From positions 1 to 42,607 of the IMG/VR virus record IMGVR_UViG_3300015202_000020: 42,607 nt of DNA, one strand, 5' to 3'. Source of the DNA: a virus. This document shows positions 6,270-42,607 of the stretch, piece by piece (the first letter of the stretch is position 1; every line of letters begins with the position of its first letter). The notes beneath the pieces are model-generated. The model saw nothing but the letters and a program-made list of their open reading frames with translations. It ran no database searches and was not told the origin of the DNA. The translations under genes and the position numbers were made by a program.

Positions 6270-6752
6270 ATGGCGATTGGTGATAAGTACGTAGGTTCGG
6301 TCAGAACAAATAATTTAAAGGACGATTCCTTTAATCACAACACAGATGTTCTTGCGGCTGTGGCCCTGTCAGATGCTTTGTTCGGTTCTCTGATGTGGCG
6401 CTTCAAATACGCTGACGATAAAACAACCATCAATAAATTGCACCAGGTATTCATTCCGATTGTGGAAAAGCGTGCGCACGTTGACCGCTGGCCGTCAAAT
6501 GTATTTTCAGACCGGATTGCATACACTGCGTTGATGTACTGGGCATTTCCAAACTGCCCAAGCTGCACCGGAACAGGAAAAGACCGGGAACATGAAGAGT
6601 TTGAGTGTGGTGTATGTCACGGAAGTGCAAAGCGTGAAATTAACGAAAACAGCGCAATCAACAAGTATGTGAAAGAAATGGTTCTTGAACTGGGTTACAT
6701 GCTCGCTGAAGCAGAAGTGAATGCGCAGCGCAAAGTTGGTAGGTCAATCTAG
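6270..6752 (+). CDS. Q-like late antitermination protein
   Basis: 160 residues with a zinc-binding module CPSCTGTG ... CGVCHGSA near residues 97-130, as in lambdoid antitermination Q proteins and DnaJ-type zinc fingers. N-terminal residues 20-90 are helical. Position is the strongest argument: it is the last larger early gene before a consensus promoter (7319-7346) followed by a terminator (7744-7775) and then the whole late region. It would let RNA polymerase read through terminators. A 115-base gap precedes it, and the ribosome site before ATG 6270 is weak. Confidence 0.68.
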   Translation: MAIGDKYVGSVRTNNLKDDSFNHNTDVLAAVALSDALFGSLMWRFKYADDKTTINKLHQVFIPIVEKRAHVDRWPSNVFSDRIAYTALMYWAFPNCPSCTGTGKDREHEEFECGVCHGSAKREINENSAINKYVKEMVLELGYMLAEAEVNAQRKVGRSI

Positions 6753-6775
6753 GTTTAAATTTTAAAGGGGTGGTC

Positions 6776-6946
6776 ATGGCGGCTTTTGCAAAGCTTTTGA
6801 CATGGGTTTTTCTGTTGTTGCATTTGTTTGGTTGGATTGTTTGGCCGTGGTATTTTGTTCTGGCACCAATATTGATTTATGTGGCAATTTTCGTTATTCA
6901 TGGGTCATTTATTGAAATCAGTGACTCTCGTAAGCGCAGAATTTAG
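6776..6946 (+). CDS. Small membrane protein
   Basis: 56 residues: MAAFAKLLTWVFLLLHLFGW followed by further hydrophobic residues to about position 43, then a basic tail ending RKRRI. Two membrane segments or one hairpin are likely. AAGGGG lies seven bases before the start. Function not recognised. Confidence 0.6.
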   Translation: MAAFAKLLTWVFLLLHLFGWIVWPWYFVLAPILIYVAIFVIHGSFIEISDSRKRRI

Positions 6947-6955
6947 GGGGGTATT

Positions 6956-7153
6956 ATGATTTTTCAGAAAGTAGCTGACACACTGGACGAACTGCAAACC
7001 AAAGTCTCCATAATGGAACTTGAAAACATGCGACTTGTAAAGCGCAATGAGGAATTACAGGCCGACTTAACCATGTGCAATCTATATCGAAATGTTGATG
7101 CGTCACTTATCGCCAGGCTACGTACTGAAAATACAATGGTTCAAGATGCCTGA
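6956..7153 (+). CDS. Small coiled-coil protein
   Basis: 65 residues, almost entirely one amphipathic helix (ADTLDELQTKVSIMELENMR and on), so a coiled-coil oligomer is likely. A G-rich ribosome site (GGGGGG) stands just upstream. The stop overlaps the next gene by eight bases. Function not recognised. Confidence 0.6.
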   Translation: MIFQKVADTLDELQTKVSIMELENMRLVKRNEELQADLTMCNLYRNVDASLIARLRTENTMVQDA

Positions 7154-7505: not shown

Positions 7506-7591
7506 GCGTTGTTGACCGAGTGGTAAGGTGTGCGCCTGTAACCCGCAAGTATGCTAGTTCATCGGTGGTTCAACTCCATTACAACGCACCA
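7506..7591 (+). tRNA. tRNA-Tyr (anticodon GTA), class II
   Basis: Seven-base acceptor GCGTTGT/ACAACGC with encoded ACCA, D arm ACC/GGT with GG in the loop, and anticodon loop CTGTAAC (7536-7542). A 16-base variable region is as expected for tRNA-Tyr. The T arm is GGTGG-TTCAACT-CCATT. There is one mismatch next to the anticodon loop (C7535 with C7543). The encoded CCA end supports a functional gene. It lies in the leader of the late transcript. Confidence 0.85.
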
Positions 7592-7599
7592 AATTCAAT

Positions 7600-7672
7600 T
7601 GCACCGTAGCTCAATCGGTAGAGCTGGGAGTCAAATCCACGTATGCACGTTCGACCCGTGCCGGTACAGCCA
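7600..7672 (+). tRNA. Degenerate tRNA or tRNA-like element
   Basis: The acceptor TGCACCG/CGGTACA has one mismatch and an encoded GCCA end. The D arm GCTC/GAGC has GG in the loop, and the T arm GCACG-TTCGACC-CGTGC is perfect. The middle is only 20 bases, two or three too few for a normal anticodon arm plus variable loop. Two weak foldings give anticodon CAA or TCA, neither with a proper stem. It is therefore a decaying tRNA or a tRNA-like processing signal. Confidence 0.55.
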
Positions 7673-27737: not shown

Positions 27738-29066
27738 ATGGATCGTTTGATAAATTATCCGGGGGCAATTCCCCTTGAAACAGACTTACTGAACACGAAC
27801 AAAAACACCATGATTGCGCTGGCAAAATTGGTTGCCGCAACGATGGGAACAACAACACAGGTCAACGGTTTGTCAGTTGTGCAAACAACTGTTGCTTCAC
27901 TTCAGGTCAATGTCAATCCGGGTGAAATTTACAGCTTGCAAAACGTTGACAACACTGCTTTTTCATCTTTGGCGGCTGACACTGCGCACCAGATTATGAA
28001 GCAAGGCATTTTGCTGAATCAGGTGTTGTTGAACTGCCCAGCGCCCGGCACTGTCGGTCAGTCAATCAACTATCTGATTGAAGCAAGTTATCAAGACACT
28101 GACGCGCTGCCAGTGGTACTGCCGTATTACAACGCCAGCAACCCATCGACGGCGTACAGCGGCCCGGCCAACGCAGGCACGACAAATAACACAGTTCGTC
28201 AGGGCACAATCAGCTTAGTGGCAAAGGCTGGTGTGTCTGCGGCTACCGGCAGTCAGACGACCCCTGCGGTCGATTCTGGCTACACCGCGCTTTATGTCGT
28301 GACTGTTGCTTATAGTCAGACGCAAATCGTAGCTGGAAATATCACCGCAGTTGTCGGCGCTCCGTTTCTGAACACTGGCATGTTGGGGCAGATTGCGACT
28401 TTGCTCAATACCCCTGTCCAGTTCGATAACTCGACCAAAGTGGCGAATACTGCGTTTGTGCAGCGGGCACTGGGTAATTTTGCCGTGGCGACGCAGCTTG
28501 GCGTTGGCGCAACTACGAATTTGACTGCCGCACAAGCAGGCCAGTATTTCCAATGCCAAGGCGGAACAGTCAACCTACCAGCATCAGCGGGAATGACGCC
28601 TGGTGCTACTTACTCATTTTCATCAAGTTCATCGACTGCGGTTGTTACAAGCGGAACTGACAAAATATACATAACGTCAGGAGCACTTTCTTCTGTGACA
28701 TTGAATGGTGAAAATATGGTTTTGGTGCTTCTTTCTGTTGGCGTTTGGGAGGTGATCAGCGGGACAATTACATTGCCGTACAGTTCATATTTTGCCTCAT
28801 CCCAGGCGCCAAATGGCTATCAAAAATTACCTAGCGGAAATATACGTCAATGGGGATCCTTAATTGCAAATGCAACTCCTTTTACCGGAACTGCAGCATC
28901 GTTCGCAACCAATTTCCCAAACAATTGCCTTTCTCTTGTGCTAACCCCGTTCACTAGCTCATTTTCAACGGTCGAGGCGCATTATTCGACTAAATCAAAC
29001 TCTGGATTTACGCTGTTATGTAACCAAGCGTCGATAACAGTTTCTTATATTGCGGAAGGCAATTAA
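27738..29066 (+). CDS. Tail fibre protein
   Basis: 442 residues. The N-terminal part (PGAIPLETDLLNTNKNTMIA) attaches to the baseplate. Repetitive Thr/Ala/Gly shaft-like sequence follows, with VQFDNSTKVANTAFVQRALG at about residues 228-247. The C-terminal 85 residues start GYQKLPSGNIRQWGSL and are typical of the gp53-like receptor-binding tip domain. Base composition in the last 450 bases becomes more AT-rich than the shaft, a usual sign of host-range exchange. Confidence 0.82.
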   Translation: MDRLINYPGAIPLETDLLNTNKNTMIALAKLVAATMGTTTQVNGLSVVQTTVASLQVNVNPGEIYSLQNVDNTAFSSLAADTAHQIMKQGILLNQVLLNCPAPGTVGQSINYLIEASYQDTDALPVVLPYYNASNPSTAYSGPANAGTTNNTVRQGTISLVAKAGVSAATGSQTTPAVDSGYTALYVVTVAYSQTQIVAGNITAVVGAPFLNTGMLGQIATLLNTPVQFDNSTKVANTAFVQRALGNFAVATQLGVGATTNLTAAQAGQYFQCQGGTVNLPASAGMTPGATYSFSSSSSTAVVTSGTDKIYITSGALSSVTLNGENMVLVLLSVGVWEVISGTITLPYSSYFASSQAPNGYQKLPSGNIRQWGSLIANATPFTGTAASFATNFPNNCLSLVLTPFTSSFSTVEAHYSTKSNSGFTLLCNQASITVSYIAEGN

Positions 29067-29067
29067 C

Positions 29068-29625
29068 ATGATAATTCTTTATTCACCATCCGCTCATAGC
29101 ACAACATCATTCGGGTTTTATTTCCCCGATGATAAAAACGCACCGGCTGATTCTTTTCCGGCGCTTCAGTCAGATCAACTGATCGCTGTTAATTTACCAG
29201 CCGGCTCAACATACAGTTTTGCCGCACCAGTTCCCCCGGCAATCACTGGAATAATTTCAATTGTTGCGCCAAGCACGGCTTATCAAGTAGCGCAGGCACA
29301 AGCTATGCAATTGAACGCCATGGAATCAGCGTATCAAGCGGCAAACGCTCTGCCAATTTCGTACATGTCTACATCGTTTCAAGCTGACCCGGGTAGCCAA
29401 GCGCTGATCGCAAACGTGCTGCAAGCTTGCGGAGGTTCGCTCCCGACCGGTTTTCAGTGGTTCGACGTGAACAACGCCGGCACTACGATGACGTTCGCCC
29501 AATTGCAAGGGTTAGCCGGTGCAATCCTGATGCGCGGGCAGCCGCTGTTTGTCAATAAGCAGACCAAGAAGGCAGCCATCAAGGCGGCAACTTCAGTGAC
29601 TGCGGTCAACGCGATCACGTTCTAA
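29068..29625 (+). CDS. Tail fibre assembly/DUF4376-like protein
   Basis: 185 residues directly after the fibre. The C-terminal part (NALPISYMSTSFQADPGSQA, TGFQWFDVNNAGTTMTFAQL) resembles DUF4376, found in proteins encoded next to tail fibres and thought to assist fibre assembly or decorate it. ATG 29068 follows the fibre stop by one base. Confidence 0.72.
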   Translation: MIILYSPSAHSTTSFGFYFPDDKNAPADSFPALQSDQLIAVNLPAGSTYSFAAPVPPAITGIISIVAPSTAYQVAQAQAMQLNAMESAYQAANALPISYMSTSFQADPGSQALIANVLQACGGSLPTGFQWFDVNNAGTTMTFAQLQGLAGAILMRGQPLFVNKQTKKAAIKAATSVTAVNAITF

Positions 29626-30439: not shown

Positions 30440-30769
30440 ATGGATTGGACAGCAATTGCAGAATTGGGGTGTTTTATTTTTGGGGCAATTGGGACGATTT
30501 TTACAACCCTGTATTTTAGAAATCAGGCAAAGACTGACGAAGAAATGAAAAAACATGGTGAAACGATTGATGGGCTGTCAAAGGAACTGGCAAATCACAA
30601 GTTATATGCCGCTGAAAACTACGTGACAAGCCGGGAACTCGATAGAACTGTTGGCGATATTAAACAAACGCTTGAGCGCATGACGAATTCAATTGAAAAA
30701 TTGGGCAGTGAAATGCGTGACATATTTTTGCACATTCAAGCCAAGTTAGACAGCAAGGCAGACAAATGA
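30440..30769 (+). CDS. Membrane-anchored coiled-coil protein before endolysin
   Basis: 109 residues: one membrane helix at about residues 7-27 (AELGCFIFGAIGTIFTTLYF), then a long charged coiled coil (NQAKTDEEMKKHGETIDGLS and on). The start sits two bases after the previous stop and the end overlaps the endolysin by ATGA. Possible holin-like or lysis accessory role by position only. Confidence 0.6.
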   Translation: MDWTAIAELGCFIFGAIGTIFTTLYFRNQAKTDEEMKKHGETIDGLSKELANHKLYAAENYVTSRELDRTVGDIKQTLERMTNSIEKLGSEMRDIFLHIQAKLDSKADK

Positions 30770-31212
30770 ATTTAGATTTACTTGATAAAGAATTGCGCCG
30801 TGACGAAGGCGTTAAATACGTCAAATACCCAGACAGCAAAGGAATTCCCACAACAGGCGTGGGGCATAATCTGAAGGCGTCACCTTTACCCGCTGGCTGG
30901 ACGTTCCCGTTAAATGATGGTCAGGTTAATCAGTTACTCAACCATGATTTAACAGTTACTTTTGCCGCCCTTGATTTGCACCTTCCTTGGTGGCGCACGT
31001 TGTCTGAAGTTCGTCAACGTGTAGTCGCAAACATGGCGTTCAACATGGGAATTGATGGATTGCTTGAGTTCAAAAACACACTGAACTTTATCAAGACAAC
31101 CGACTACAAAGCGGCATCATTCGGAATGCTTCAATCAGCTTGGGCAAAACAGGTTGGTGAACGTGCCGACCGATTAGCTCAGGCAATGAAAACTGACGTT
31201 ATGCCGAACTAA
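30766..31212 (+). CDS. Endolysin, GH24 (T4-type) muramidase
   Basis: 148 residues. The catalytic triad spacing of T4 lysozyme is present: E14 (LRRDEGV), D23 (YPDSKG), T29 (IPTTGVGHN), that is Glu-8-Asp-5-Thr. The C-terminal part (RVVANMAFNMGIDGLLEFKN) is the conserved helix of this family. It cleaves peptidoglycan. No signal peptide or SAR helix is visible, so it needs the holin encoded 0.5 kb downstream. A hairpin terminator follows. Confidence 0.9.
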   Translation: MNLDLLDKELRRDEGVKYVKYPDSKGIPTTGVGHNLKASPLPAGWTFPLNDGQVNQLLNHDLTVTFAALDLHLPWWRTLSEVRQRVVANMAFNMGIDGLLEFKNTLNFIKTTDYKAASFGMLQSAWAKQVGERADRLAQAMKTDVMPN

Positions 31213-31736: not shown

Positions 31737-31960
31737 TGCCTAAATGGATTACCGACATTCTGACCGGCCTTGACGGGCAAACATTTGCAATCGTCAGGGT
31801 GCTTGGTTTCGCGCTGGTGGTGCTTTTTATGCTGCTGGAAGTCGTAGCATTCTTTACCGGCAAACCTTTTGACGGCCAGGCTTACGGCATCGGGTCTGGG
31901 CTGGTAATTGGCGCTATGGGCGCTGCAATCAAATTAACTGAATCGAGTGAGCCAAAATGA
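31736..31960 (+). CDS. Holin-like membrane protein
   Basis: 74 residues with two membrane segments (about 20-40, VRVLGFALVVLFMLLEVVAF, and 49-64, YGIGSGLVIGAMGAAIKL) joined by a short polar turn, and a polar start and end. Size, topology and its position before the spanins fit a class II holin. It joins the HNH-like gene by TAATG and Rz by ATGA. Confidence 0.78.
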   Translation: MPKWITDILTGLDGQTFAIVRVLGFALVVLFMLLEVVAFFTGKPFDGQAYGIGSGLVIGAMGAAIKLTESSEPK

Positions 31961-32424
31961 TGATGGGAATATATTTAAAACTTGCTGCTGCACTGGTTCT
32001 TATTTCTGCACTTGTCGGTGGCGGTGTCTATCTGAACCATGCTGGCTATGAACGCGGAAAAGCGGAAGTGCAACAGCAATGGGACGCACAAAAACTGGTT
32101 GACACGCTTGCCGTTGAACGGCAGGCAGTAGCAAACGCAAACAAAATAAATGAAAGTGAATCGAAATATGTTGAACAAAAACGCATTAATGACAATCTGC
32201 TTGCTGCTCGGTCTAACAGCATGTTCGTCACTGCCACAGCCTGCCCAGCCAGTGTTAGCGCCACCGTTAAAACTGTCGCCGGTTCTGATTCAGCCAGTGG
32301 AAGCGAACGGCCTGCAACGGTCACAGTTGATTTTAGCGACCTTGCAGAAGAAATTAATCAGCTTGGGCATGACTACAACGAACTTGCCGACAAAATAAAC
32401 GCGATAGCCGAAGAAAACAAATAA
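31957..32424 (+). CDS. Rz-like inner-membrane spanin
   Basis: 155 residues: N-terminal membrane anchor (LKLAAALVLISALVGGGVYL), then a long helical periplasmic part (ERGKAEVQQQWDAQKLVDTL) and a C-terminal helix (LAEEINQLGHDYNELADKIN). It pairs with the nested Rz1 lipoprotein to fuse the inner and outer membranes at lysis. Confidence 0.82.
   Translation: MMMGIYLKLAAALVLISALVGGGVYLNHAGYERGKAEVQQQWDAQKLVDTLAVERQAVANANKINESESKYVEQKRINDNLLAARSNSMFVTATACPASVSATVKTVAGSDSASGSERPATVTVDFSDLAEEINQLGHDYNELADKINAIAEENK
32168..32398 (+). CDS. Rz1-like outer-membrane spanin lipoprotein, nested in Rz
   Basis: 76 residues in the +1 frame wholly inside Rz. MLNKNALMTICLLLGLTAC contains the lipobox LTAC, predicting lipidation at Cys19. 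It is followed by the Pro-rich stretch typical of Rz1 (SSLPQPAQPVLAPPLKLSPV). Start options are ATG 32150, 32168 and 32189. The middle one gives the best signal peptide. Nested Rz1 genes are well known in lambda and relatives. Confidence 0.82.
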   Translation: MLNKNALMTICLLLGLTACSSLPQPAQPVLAPPLKLSPVLIQPVEANGLQRSQLILATLQKKLISLGMTTTNLPTK

Positions 32425-32468: not shown

Positions 32469-33242
32469 ATGACTTCAATTTTGGTTATACCTGATACACA
32501 ATGCAAGCCAAATCAAGATTTTGAATATTTGCGCTGCATCGGTGAATACATTGTTGCAAAGAAACCGGGTATTGTGGTTCACCTTGGCGACCACTGGGAT
32601 ATGCCAAGTTTAAGCAGTTACGATGTGGGCAAAAAGAGCTATGAGGGGCGCAGATACAAAGCAGACATTCAGGCCGGGAAAGATGGCATGATTGCGCTGC
32701 TTCAGCCAATGCGTGACTATAATTTGATGCGCAGGAAAAACAAGCAATCAATCTACCATCCTGAAATGCATTTTCACATGGGGAACCATGAGAACAGAAT
32801 AAACCGGGCAATCAACGACACGCCAATGCTGGATGGAACAATCAGCACTGATGATTGTGGCGTTGAATCGTTCGGCTGGACAGTACACCCATTTTTGAAA
32901 GTGAACGTGGTGGAAGGCATCGCGTTTGCTCACTACTTCGTCACTGGTCAGATGGGTCGCCCGTGTTCGTCAGCAGCCGCCCAGCTTCGAACAAAGTACA
33001 TGTCAACGATTGCCGGGCATCAGCAGGGATTGCAAACGGCAAACGGATACAGGGCAGACGGTAAGCGCGTGACAGCCATTATTGCCGGGTCGTCATACGT
33101 GCATGACGAAGAATATTTGAACCATCAGTCAAACAAACATTGGCGCGGTGTTTTAATGCTGCACAACGTGTCAGATGGCGAGTTTGACCGCGTTGAAGTG
33201 CCGACTGATTACCTTGTGGCCAAATACAAAAAAACGGCTTAA
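32469..33242 (+). CDS. Calcineurin-like metallophosphoesterase
   Basis: 257 residues. Metal-binding motifs in order: IPDTQ near residue 7, HLGDHWD near residues 39-45, MGNHENR near 104-110 and GHQQG near 183-187. Phage members of this family can act on nucleotides or as phosphatases; the substrate here is unknown. It is the last late gene and is followed by a short hairpin facing the integrase remnant. Its place after lysis suggests a late-acquired accessory gene. Confidence 0.82.
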   Translation: MTSILVIPDTQCKPNQDFEYLRCIGEYIVAKKPGIVVHLGDHWDMPSLSSYDVGKKSYEGRRYKADIQAGKDGMIALLQPMRDYNLMRRKNKQSIYHPEMHFHMGNHENRINRAINDTPMLDGTISTDDCGVESFGWTVHPFLKVNVVEGIAFAHYFVTGQMGRPCSSAAAQLRTKYMSTIAGHQQGLQTANGYRADGKRVTAIIAGSSYVHDEEYLNHQSNKHWRGVLMLHNVSDGEFDRVEVPTDYLVAKYKKTA

Positions 33243-33251
33243 AAGTCGTTT
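33232..33251. terminator. Hairpin between convergent genes
   Basis: AAACGGC, loop TTAAAA, GTCGTTT (one G-T pair), flanked by A and T tracts. It could end transcripts from both sides. Confidence 0.5.
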
Positions 33252-33254
33252 AAT

Positions 33255-33512
33255 TTATAATTTCTTCGCCAGATTTTCGGCGGTTTCGTTGTAATAGATC
33301 ATCAGCATTTTTAAGTCCCTATGCCCGACCATTCGCGCCAGTTCGAGAACATTCAGTTTTTTTGCCAGGCGCGTAATGGCTTCGTGCCGCGTGTCATGGA
33401 AGGTTAAATCTTCAATCAGCGCCTTGCGCTTGGCTTTGCGAAATAAAGCATCTAGGCTTTCTTTGGTTACGTCAAAAACGGTGTTGCGCTCTTTCGGCAG
33501 CATCGCCAGCAA
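33255..33512 (-). pseudogene. C-terminal remnant of a second tyrosine recombinase
   Basis: About 80 residues match the end of a tyrosine integrase: LDALFRKAKRKALIEDLTFH, the catalytic HDTRHEAITRL (HxxR), MVGHRDLKM (GH) and the nucleophile in MIYYNETAENL. A full enzyme needs about 250 more residues upstream, which are absent. It is clearly of another subfamily than the intact integrase at 34937 (HxxR here, YDLR there). It runs head to tail into the broken membrane gene at 33513-33712. Confidence 0.8.
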
Positions 33513-33550
33513 TACTGGTCACGATTGGATTTTTTAGCTTGCTCATTTCG

Positions 33551-33712
33551 ATGATGTTTAACGTAGTGCCACTGGCAAACAAAGACATTCTCAATATTAT
33601 GATTGGCGTACTCGGTACAGCGTGGATTTCGATTATTGGATTTTATTTCGGTAACTCTCAAGGCAGTCAACAAAAAGACATCTTGCTGGCAAACAGCACG
33701 CAAATCAAATAA
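33551..33712 (+). pseudogene. 5'-truncated small membrane protein
   Basis: The open frame continues upstream of ATG 33551 through the integrase remnant without a natural start. The likely remaining protein reads AILVTIGFFSLLISMMFNVV, then PLANKDILNIMIGVLG and TAWISIIGFYFGNSQGS. It has two membrane segments and a polar tail, resembling small phage holin-like or unknown membrane proteins. No ribosome site precedes ATG 33551. The 5' end was probably lost at the recombination junction near 33512. Confidence 0.5.
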
Positions 33713-33721
33713 AGGTAAAGT

Positions 33722-34711
33722 ATGAAAAATCTATTGGCGGCTCTATTCGCTATGTCTCTGGCAGTCATGGCTCACGCTCAAATCTTCGCACCCTATGAGC
33801 TTTACGGCTATCCACCACCACCGGCCACACCTGACGGAAGCAACTTTCACTTTACTGTGCCGCCTGGCGCTAACGCGGTGACTTGGGCTTTTGGTCACGG
33901 CAAATGCGGAGAAGAAGTCTGGTTCCGTAATTTCCAGGGCGCTCAGGTTGCTGCGGCTAATATTCCTCTTTTCATCGCATCCGGTAAAAAGTACATTGTC
34001 TCGGTCGGCGGCGGTAATGCGCCCCAAATGGTATTCAAGTGCGACAATCAGGCAGGTATGCTCAAGTTTGTTCAGACCTACTATAGCCCGAATATGCTCG
34101 GCATTGATTTCGACATCGAGGGCCAGAACAAATACACAGATGCGGACATTGATGCCCTGATTCATCAAATTCAGTATATTCAGAACCAAACAGCGCACCC
34201 TGAGTACAATAACATTCGGTGGTCATTCAATATCGGCGGCTACTTTGGCGGCGGGGAGAATAATCACTACAACGTGCTGGGTAATGCGATCATTGATCGA
34301 TTAAAGCACTATACCATCAATAATTACGTGATCCAGATTCAAGTCATGGATTATTTAAACGATCCGTCGCACTGCATTCAAAAAGCAGATTTAAGCGGCT
34401 GTCAGATCGCATTAAGCGGCATCGAGGACATCAAGAACGTACATAAGTTCTTCAATATCCCATACAGCAAGATAGCGATTAATCCCGGCCTGGGCGTTAA
34501 TGACTTTGGTTATGACGTATTCACGCTTGAAGACGCGGCTGTGCTGGCTCAGTTCGCCATTGATTACGGTCTTGCCGGAATTAGCCCATGGTCAATTTCG
34601 AATGATCAAAGCTGTGCACCGGCAGCTTATAACAACATGACTTGCCATGGCATTCCCGGATTGCCTAACTTCGCATTTACTAAAACTTTTTTGACTTATT
34701 TGCCGCATTAA
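33722..34711 (+). CDS. Secreted GH18 chitinase-like glycoside hydrolase
   Basis: 329 residues. Signal peptide (residues 1-19, cleavage after AHA) for export. GH18 landmarks are present: SVGGG (94-98, the SxGG motif), GIDFDIEG (127-134) with the catalytic DxDxE residues D129, D131 and E133, and QVMDY near the third conserved strand. The first Asp of the full DGxDxDxE motif is Leu (126). A strong AAAGGTAAAG precedes the ATG. It has its own terminator and sits beside attP, where lysogenic-conversion cargo commonly lies. It may let a lysogen use chitin; it could also act on peptidoglycan-like substrates. Confidence 0.82.
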   Translation: MKNLLAALFAMSLAVMAHAQIFAPYELYGYPPPPATPDGSNFHFTVPPGANAVTWAFGHGKCGEEVWFRNFQGAQVAAANIPLFIASGKKYIVSVGGGNAPQMVFKCDNQAGMLKFVQTYYSPNMLGIDFDIEGQNKYTDADIDALIHQIQYIQNQTAHPEYNNIRWSFNIGGYFGGGENNHYNVLGNAIIDRLKHYTINNYVIQIQVMDYLNDPSHCIQKADLSGCQIALSGIEDIKNVHKFFNIPYSKIAINPGLGVNDFGYDVFTLEDAAVLAQFAIDYGLAGISPWSISNDQSCAPAAYNNMTCHGIPGLPNFAFTKTFLTYLPH

Positions 34712-34714
34712 TAC

Positions 34715-34737
34715 TGCCTAAATAATAGGCAAATTTT
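34715..34737 (+). terminator. Terminator after the chitinase gene
   Basis: TGCCTA, loop AATAA, TAGGCA, then AATTTTGTT. Four bases after the stop codon. Confidence 0.65.
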
Positions 34738-34738
34738 G

Positions 34739-34936
34739 TTCCGCAAAATACAATTAACTTTTATTTTCCCCTATGAGTAAAATATTGGTAGAATCATGTT
34801 TTGCGGAACGAAAACTTCGCTGTAAGCCTTGAAAACATTGAGTTTTTACATGAGCTTCCCAAGCTTACGACGAGGGTTCGATTCCCTTCACCCGCTCCAT
34901 GTTTTTATTTCCGCAAAACGATTTATTTCCGCAAAA
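34739..34936. other. attP region: integrase arm-type repeats
   Basis: The 10-mer TTCCGCAAAA occurs at 34739-34748, 34909-34918 and 34927-34936, and in inverted orientation at 34799-34808. The four copies flank the tRNA-derived core, two on each side, as arm-type integrase sites do in lambda-like attP. The last copy touches the integrase stop codon. Confidence 0.78.
34851..34899 (+). other. attP core: 3' half of tRNA-Gly (CCC)
   Basis: Anticodon arm TGAGC-TTCCCAA-GCTTA with anticodon CCC, a short variable loop, T arm GAGGG-TTCGATT-CCCTT, acceptor strand CACCCGC, then TCCA. The D arm and the 5' acceptor strand (expected GCGGGTG) are absent, so this is not a working tRNA. It restores the host gene on integration. 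The host attachment site is therefore a tRNA-Gly(CCC) gene. Confidence 0.88.
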
Positions 34937-35962
34937 TTATTTTGTCGGGCTGACAATCTTACCCCTCCTGAGGTAATGCCGCTGCGTAGTTTTAACGCTG
35001 TCATGCCCCAATAAATCACTAGCCGCCTGGTCGCCTCGATCATCCGAGGTATCGTCTGCTGCCTTCGCTCTTAAGTCATAAAACCAGAACGATCTAATTT
35101 CGTTTTCGGCCTCTGGATTGACTTCAATTGCAGCATTGCGTGCCTTGTCGAACTGGTAGCGCAAAGCTGGCTGAGTCACCTTCCTACCAAAATCATTCAC
35201 GATTAGCGAGCCGGTCACTACCTTGTAGGTTTCTTTCCGCGCATGTATTCTGTCGATTAATTCCCCAAGCTCACCGCTTAAAATGATCCGCAATGGCTGT
35301 TTAGTTTTTTCTTGCGTGACGATCAAGTGATTGTTCACAATATCAAATTCGGTCATAGCGATAGCGTCTGCTGGTCGCTGGCCGGTCAAATATGCCAAAT
35401 CCATCGCATCCTTTAACGGCTGACCAGCGCATTTATAAACTATTTTAAACAGCGCATCAGACACGTAGACGGTACGTTTATCCAGACTATGCCCAGAAAT
35501 GCCTTCACAAGGGTTCTGGGCATCCGTATAGCCCCAGCCTCGCGCATGGTTGAATATCGTTGAAAAAAGCCGCTTACACCTGTTTGCGGTCGTTGGTATG
35601 GCTTTGTGCTTGTCAAGAAACTGTTTGATGTGCATTGGCCGGATTTGATCCAGCGGCGCAGTGCCGAAAAATGCTTCAACATGCTTGATGTCGGACCTAA
35701 ATATTTTTTGTGTATTGTTGGCTAGAGTGTCATAAACTTCTAGCCGGTAGCGAATGATTGCCGCAGAAAATGTCGAAGCCTGAATTGTTTTGGTGACATT
35801 TAATTCTGAATATTTTCTGAGCGCAATAATATAATCTTTGCCCAACGGTATTTCTTTGCGTGGTTTTGCGCCAGTATCAAGGTAATAATAAATCTTGTCA
35901 CCACGGACGCGCTTACGCATCATCGGCGGCAAATTTTTATTGACTGTTGGCTCGCGTCCCAT
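34937..35962 (-). CDS. int: Tyrosine-recombinase integrase
   Basis: 341 residues. The N-terminal arm-binding part (MRKRVRGDKIYYYLDTGAKP) is followed by a SAM-like core-binding domain. The catalytic domain has R196 (LTGQRPADA), R298 in YDLRAKA (the HxxR His is Tyr295, as in many phage integrases), H320 (LLGHDS) and the nucleophile Tyr330 (RHYLRRG). It integrates the phage at tRNA-Gly. The stop lies directly against the attP arm sites, and DUF4224 ends one base before its start. Confidence 0.93.
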   Translation of the reverse strand: MGREPTVNKNLPPMMRKRVRGDKIYYYLDTGAKPRKEIPLGKDYIIALRKYSELNVTKTIQASTFSAAIIRYRLEVYDTLANNTQKIFRSDIKHVEAFFGTAPLDQIRPMHIKQFLDKHKAIPTTANRCKRLFSTIFNHARGWGYTDAQNPCEGISGHSLDKRTVYVSDALFKIVYKCAGQPLKDAMDLAYLTGQRPADAIAMTEFDIVNNHLIVTQEKTKQPLRIILSGELGELIDRIHARKETYKVVTGSLIVNDFGRKVTQPALRYQFDKARNAAIEVNPEAENEIRSFWFYDLRAKAADDTSDDRGDQAASDLLGHDSVKTTQRHYLRRGKIVSPTK

Positions 35963-42419: not shown

Positions 42420-42580
42420 CCAGACGCAGAGTTTTAACTGATTCACAGGTTCGTGAAATCAAGGCAGCACATCAACCAGGTAAGCGTGGCAACGGTTATG
42501 AATCGCTTGCAAAAAAATACGGTGTTGGAATTTCAACCGTTCGTGATTTATTAACCTACCGGGTGAGGTATTCAACATGA
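42416..42580 (+). CDS. Small helix-turn-helix protein
   Basis: 54 residues: RRRVLTDSQVREIKAAHQPG, then YESLAKKYGVGISTVRDLLT. This is a resolvase- or sigma-like helix-turn-helix standing alone. ATGA overlaps on both sides link it to its neighbours. Probably a DNA-binding accessory of the early operon. Confidence 0.72.
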   Translation: MTRRRVLTDSQVREIKAAHQPGKRGNGYESLAKKYGVGISTVRDLLTYRVRYST

Positions 42581-42607
42581 AAGTACTGATTGCATGTGAA
42601 TACAGCG
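42577..42607 (+). CDS. N-terminus of methyltransferase-like protein (continues at window start)
   Basis: Ten codons, MKVLIACEYS plus a partial Gly codon, starting in an ATGA overlap. This is the N-terminus expected for the protein whose remainder is read from position 2. About 8-10 residues between them seem to be missing. Confidence 0.7.
   Translation, partial: MKVLIACEYS

Follow-up and report, generated by a model that had tools for sequence, protein, structure and literature searches.

The DNA analysed here (the window) is a virus record of 42,607 nucleotides. At positions 33722-34711, on the plus strand, there is an open reading frame that starts with ATG and encodes 329 amino acids, exactly where the original prediction had put a gene for a secreted GH18 enzyme. 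By sequence, phmmer, tblastn and fold the product belongs with the P. furiosus/S. venezuelae type of GH18. Inspection and hydropathy predict a Sec signal peptide at residues 1-19 (33722-33778; KNLLAALFAMSLAVMAHA, ending in AHA and followed by Q), and similar signal sequences open the relatives in two other phage loci, L094 and L092. Sequence and alignment place the SxGG motif (strand 3 of the GH18 barrel) at S94-V-G-G97 (34001-34012) and the catalytic motif LGIDFDIE (strand 4) at residues 126-133 (34097-34120), with D129-F-D131-I-E133 intact. Both signatures that had been proposed for the protein, SxGG and DxDxE, are present, as is the signal peptide as judged by inspection. The protein is a lone catalytic domain and is too short for an added chitin-binding domain.

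The gene is co-directional with the late genes. A ribosome-binding-site-like AAAGG (33711-33715, plus strand) lies 6 nt before the ATG; it is reasonable and nothing exceptional, so its earlier description as strong was overstated. Downstream there is a terminator-like hairpin (34715-34731, plus strand) with 6 pairs, 3 of them G-C, and the tail AATTTTG. This hairpin is weak, and the 11 terminator-like sites in the region are not clearly above the number in shuffled sequences (7.0 +/- 2.7). There are 8 promoter-like sites, where 8.6 are expected by chance. As no promoter stands above chance, expression in the lysogen can only be presumed.

Upstream of the gene, all on the plus strand, are an endolysin of the phage lysozyme type (30766-31212), an HNH endonuclease with a relative in the phage locus L091 (31242-31736), an Rz-like spanin (31957-32424) and a metallophosphoesterase (phrog_221; 32469-33242). 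There is a stem-loop at 33232-33251, between the late genes and the GH18 gene. Next come a C-terminal fragment of a second, truncated tyrosine integrase on the minus strand (33255-33512) and a 5'-truncated frame for a small membrane protein on the plus strand (phrog_9990-like; 33512-33712), which stops 9 nt short of the start codon of the GH18 gene. The integrase piece abutting the truncated membrane-protein frame is a recombination scar beside the GH18 cargo. The gene had been described as lying between the lysis genes and attP; that order is right, but the description left out the metallophosphoesterase, the integrase piece and the membrane-protein frame that lie in between.

The attachment site and the phage genome

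The 45 nt at 34855-34899 (plus strand) are identical to the 3' end of tRNA-Gly(CCC) and form the attP core. ARAGORN calls a complete tRNA-Gly(CCC) gene in six of the six genomic loci holding the core that were examined. Between the core and the end of a complete tyrosine integrase gene (34937-35962, minus strand) lie 37 bases. This bears out the attP that had been proposed at tRNA-Gly, and the window virus is a temperate phage at this tRNA gene. The sequence TTCCGCAAAA occurs in four exact copies, one of them inverted, at 34739-34748, 34799-34808, 34909-34918 and 34927-34936. These copies flank the attP core and there is no other exact copy in the window; they are candidate integrase arm-type binding sites.

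Relatives of the sheath and terminase of the window phage occur in the order of Herbaspirillum. The 45-nt core was found in 15 of 398 genomes across the phylum. A search of 300 genomes of the Herbaspirillum order for the tRNA core plus three more window bases gave no match, the pattern being a little too long to make the test a fair one. A single gene seems to be split between the two ends of the window (42550-42607 and 1-60; MKVLIACEYS... and ...GGGHDAMSCDLL...). The record therefore probably represents a circular phage genome that is almost complete and lacks a few bases where the ends meet. At 7506-7672 there are two phage-encoded tRNA genes, tRNA-Tyr(GTA) and tRNA-Leu(CAA), 8 nt apart.

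The integrase and the HNH protein of L091 are 53% and 48% identical to those of the window, and its att site ends in the same last 29 bases of tRNA-Gly. The slot between att and the lysis genes in L091 holds an aspartyl protease and a Lipase_3 (class 3 lipase). The G261 prophage has the terminase (75%), portal, capsid, sheath and baseplate in common with the window; its lysis region runs into unrelated genes and there is no GH18 gene there. Because the L091 slot differs and the G261 prophage is without GH18, the slot is variable and GH18 is dispensable to this phage type. The gene had been taken for cargo beside attP, and this view holds: replaced in L091 and absent after the lysis genes of G261, the window GH18 is optional cargo.

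Fold, family and active site

We modelled the window GH18 protein by AlphaFold2 from a 28-row alignment (pLDDT 85.3, pTM 0.86). In VIA-align the model matched S. venezuelae chitinase 1 (9buf) with a Z of 30.0 and an rmsd of 2.2 over 270 residues, and P. furiosus chitinase (2dsk) with a Z of 28.4; other GH18 chains gave a Z of about 20. Foldseek agrees (E about 4e-15 to 7e-15 for the S. venezuelae and P. furiosus chitinases). A different fold had been named as grounds for rejecting the family assignment; the model is a GH18 TIM barrel. The best viral structural match is Chlorella virus vChti-1 (Foldseek E 8e-13), which, unlike the window protein, has 836 amino acids and comes from a virus of a eukaryotic alga; the identity is 18%.

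With the window protein as query, phmmer gave E values of 4.6e-16 to 9buf and 1.9e-6 to 2dsk, and tblastn found a Burkholderia protein with 32% identity (E 1e-39). From GTDB, 80 of 124 loci were kept as relatives, with 31-38% identity, mostly from Burkholderiales, Chitinibacteraceae and Rhodanobacteraceae. The Pfam family PF00704 (GH18) gave the window protein 11.9 bits, where its gathering cutoff is 29.6. With 19.5 bits the Burkholderia relative in L002 falls short as well, so PF00704 under-detects this GH18 subtype. Searches of PHROGs and NCBIfam gave no significant family.

D129, D131, E133, M209, D210, N260, D261, W290 and D295 are invariant in 81 cellular relatives and are kept in the window protein. 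Position 211 is Tyr or Phe in these relatives and Tyr in the window. In the alignment E133 falls on the residue that was replaced in 3a4w, the P. furiosus 'catalytic site mutant'; a literature search for papers on the residue numbers of P. furiosus chitinase found none. The solved chitinases 9buf and 2dsk are of the same GH18 subtype and have the same DFDIE, MDY, ND and WS core. In contrast with the window protein, to which they are 20-24% identical, they are cellular enzymes, and they keep the T and M of TPM and the R of WS..RD, which the phage protein has lost. Sequence and model together identify the product of 33722-34711 as a GH18 enzyme.

The original prediction also raised the possibility that an Asp-to-Leu change at the first motif position (Leu126) abolishes activity. 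In the 81 cellular relatives this position is mostly Val, Ile or Leu and occasionally Arg or Ala, Val being the commonest and Asp not among the five commonest residues, a count that is biased because part of the set was found with a search pattern that fixed Leu or Ile there. A second search pattern, GxCGxExW, leaves the position free. The solved P. furiosus chitinase reads YLDFDIE and has no Asp at the first motif position either. A residue other than Asp is thus usual in the cellular relatives and is found in the P. furiosus enzyme, which rules out Leu126 as the killer of the enzyme. Judged from these alignments, Leu126 is normal for this GH18 subtype.

Phage copies and their divergence

Among the INPHARED phage records, neither the window GH18 nor the L094 GH18 had a relative. 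IMG/VR gave no relative when searched with the window protein and with the A1 alignment; a broader alignment found three loci there, and another pattern set added none. In L093 and L094, endolysin, Rz-like and lipase genes are followed by a GH18 gene of the same clade. The closest phage copy is that of L094. It belongs to the phage record G007, which is 57 kb long and has a terminal repeat of 59 bp. The G007 gene immediately follows genes for a glucosaminidase endolysin, an Rz-like protein and a Lipase_3, and a profile search for tyrosine integrases together with a reading of the ORFs revealed no recognisable tyrosine integrase in this record.

The G007 protein (L094 10001-11425; G007:C1:2632-4056) has a 97-aa insert shortly after DFDIEGQ. 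The insert weakly resembles repeats in the tail and baseplate proteins of the same phage (BLAST E about 3e-5, composition correction off), a likeness for which phmmer gives no support, and is possibly an accretion domain common to the surface proteins of this phage. The 966-aa protein encoded in L092 (9767-12667; G006) has a signal sequence, and its N-terminal part is a GH18 of this subtype. Its gene lies between tail-sheath-like and structural genes on a phage contig of 32% G+C, and the protein is possibly a virion-associated GH18. Upstream of both lysis/GH18 regions, the window and L094 have a tail-fibre-assembly-like gene (29050-29625 and 6477-7070, respectively; 47% identity). This gene is a shared exchange region of the window phage and the otherwise largely different G007.

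We took as near-invariant the 73 columns in which at least 93% of the cellular proteins have one residue. The window GH18 is changed at 26 of these 73 columns and the L094/G007 GH18 at 33. Nineteen are changed in both, and at nine of the nineteen the new residue is the same (K106, Q135, G172, G173, I190, Q207, L212, N254 and S293). Departures in the window protein include T95V, T170N, A172G, T173G, M207Q, G212L, E252A, T254N, M256G, H288S and R294N, and several changed positions adjoin catalytic strands. On this comparison the sugar-binding cleft of the phage lineage looks altered, and the departures suggest that the substrate or activity of the window GH18 may have shifted.

Trees group the window and G007 proteins (support 99/94 in one and 99 in another). 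Since nine matching replacements are hard to get on two independent long branches, we regard the two as one phage lineage. A wider phage clade with L092/G006 was supported in the full trees, but the window protein leaves G006 once G007 is omitted. Because this wider grouping depends on G007 being in the tree, we claim only the lineage of the window and G007. In the tree the phage copies fall within the burkholderial chitinases and have the chromosomal Paraburkholderia acidicola copy as their sister, a placement that long branches make uncertain. Phage-borne chitinase-type enzymes are already known, and the window GH18 is a new, strongly diverged member.

Role of the enzyme

The best explanation, to which we give a probability of about 0.6, is that the product of the gene is a retaining GH18 glycosidase that is exported, most likely with a chitin-type substrate, and that the gene is optional att-proximal cargo that most likely helps the lysogen or the infected cell. 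The predicted Sec signal would take the enzyme out of the cytoplasm. By analogy with the GH18 family, Glu133, placed by Asp129 and Asp131, would protonate the glycosidic bond, and the N-acetyl group of the substrate would act as the nucleophile in a substrate-assisted retaining hydrolysis. Chitin is a likely substrate; the enzyme would most likely act outside the cell and cut beta-1,4-GlcNAc polymers, either chitin or chito-oligosaccharides. In the att-proximal slot related phages carry other hydrolases or nothing. The gain would most likely go to the lysogen, as a supply of carbon and nitrogen from chitin, or to the infected cell and its neighbours.

There is a tested precedent for benefit to the lysogen, although in a different enzyme family. 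The prophage chitinase of Pseudomonas phage KT1 is associated with a 1.5-fold higher chitinase activity and a 1.4-fold higher growth rate on chitin (PMC11788074). As in the window, the gene is on a temperate phage, which in the case of KT1 is about 41 kb. The KT1 enzyme is expressed by the lysogen and its growth gain on chitin was tested experimentally, whereas the window GH18 is known from sequence and model; the KT1 enzyme is also a GH19 of 177 aa, in comparison with the GH18 of 329 aa described here (PMC11788074). A GH18 has been predicted in silico in the prophage Ph_Salpro2, without structural, phylogenetic or att-site analysis as far as the accessible text of that paper goes (PMC12874462). 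A soil viral chitosanase is likewise a phage-borne chitin-chain hydrolase whose viral copies are phylogenetically distinct from cellular ones; unlike the window protein it is a GH75 with proven activity and a crystal structure (PMC9485262).

Lysogenic conversion is not the sole reading, because a GH18 of the same clade is found in a phage with no recognisable tyrosine integrase and a looser relative is found among virion genes. The protein could be a late-expressed exoenzyme of an extended lysis/release set (endolysin, spanin, lipase, GH18) that degrades GlcNAc matrix or particles at lysis and aids virion spread, lysogeny being incidental. We regard this as a tentative and rather unlikely alternative. 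It fits the position of the window gene, co-directional with the late genes and downstream of the lysis genes, and also the G007 copy right after endolysin, Rz-like and Lipase_3 genes and the L092 relative among tail and structural genes. However, the stem-loop at 33232-33251 and the opposed integrase remnant separate the window gene from the late genes and make read-through into it uncertain. Additionally, the other hydrolases in the L091 slot are typical of cargo, and G007 may be temperate by a route other than a tyrosine integrase.

Two further proposals concern the substrate. It is doubtful that the cleft of the phage-specific GH18 clade (the window phage and G007/G008) was rebuilt, by M207Q, T173G, G212L, T254N and other changes, for a phage purpose on a surface or matrix GlcNAc glycan and not for nutritional chitin, in temperate and possibly virulent phages. 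It is quite improbable that the substrate is another GlcNAc glycan (host capsule, biofilm poly-GlcNAc, N-glycan or a peptidoglycan-linked sugar) and that a re-tuned cleft serves to alter the cell surface or its environment, as might happen in superinfection exclusion or in the behaviour of biofilms. The 26 of 73 changed columns point towards such glycans, as do the columns in which the window protein and the G007 protein are both changed, nine of nineteen with the same residue and several adjoining catalytic strands; the catalytic and core substrate residues are nevertheless kept, the nearest solved structures are both chitinases, and a residue change does not measure specificity.

That the phage lately acquired a host chitinase gene through local recombination or an imprecise excision, and that the gene has no selected role there, is already disfavoured and very improbable: the adjoining attP, integrase remnant and 5'-truncated membrane-protein frame are signs of local recombination, but the identity to cellular relatives is only 31-38%, the protein shares a long branch with the copy of another phage, the G+C content of the gene (0.470) matches that of the phage (0.464), and the frame and catalytic residues are intact, all of which argues for long residence under selection.

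If the exported chitin-type glycosidase that we favour is active, this would be a further phage supplying an exported polysaccharide-degrading enzyme. The att-proximal slot swaps hydrolases (lipase, protease and GH18) between phages, and the changed near-invariant positions could show directly and at low cost whether phages adapt enzymes of this kind to substrates other than chitin.
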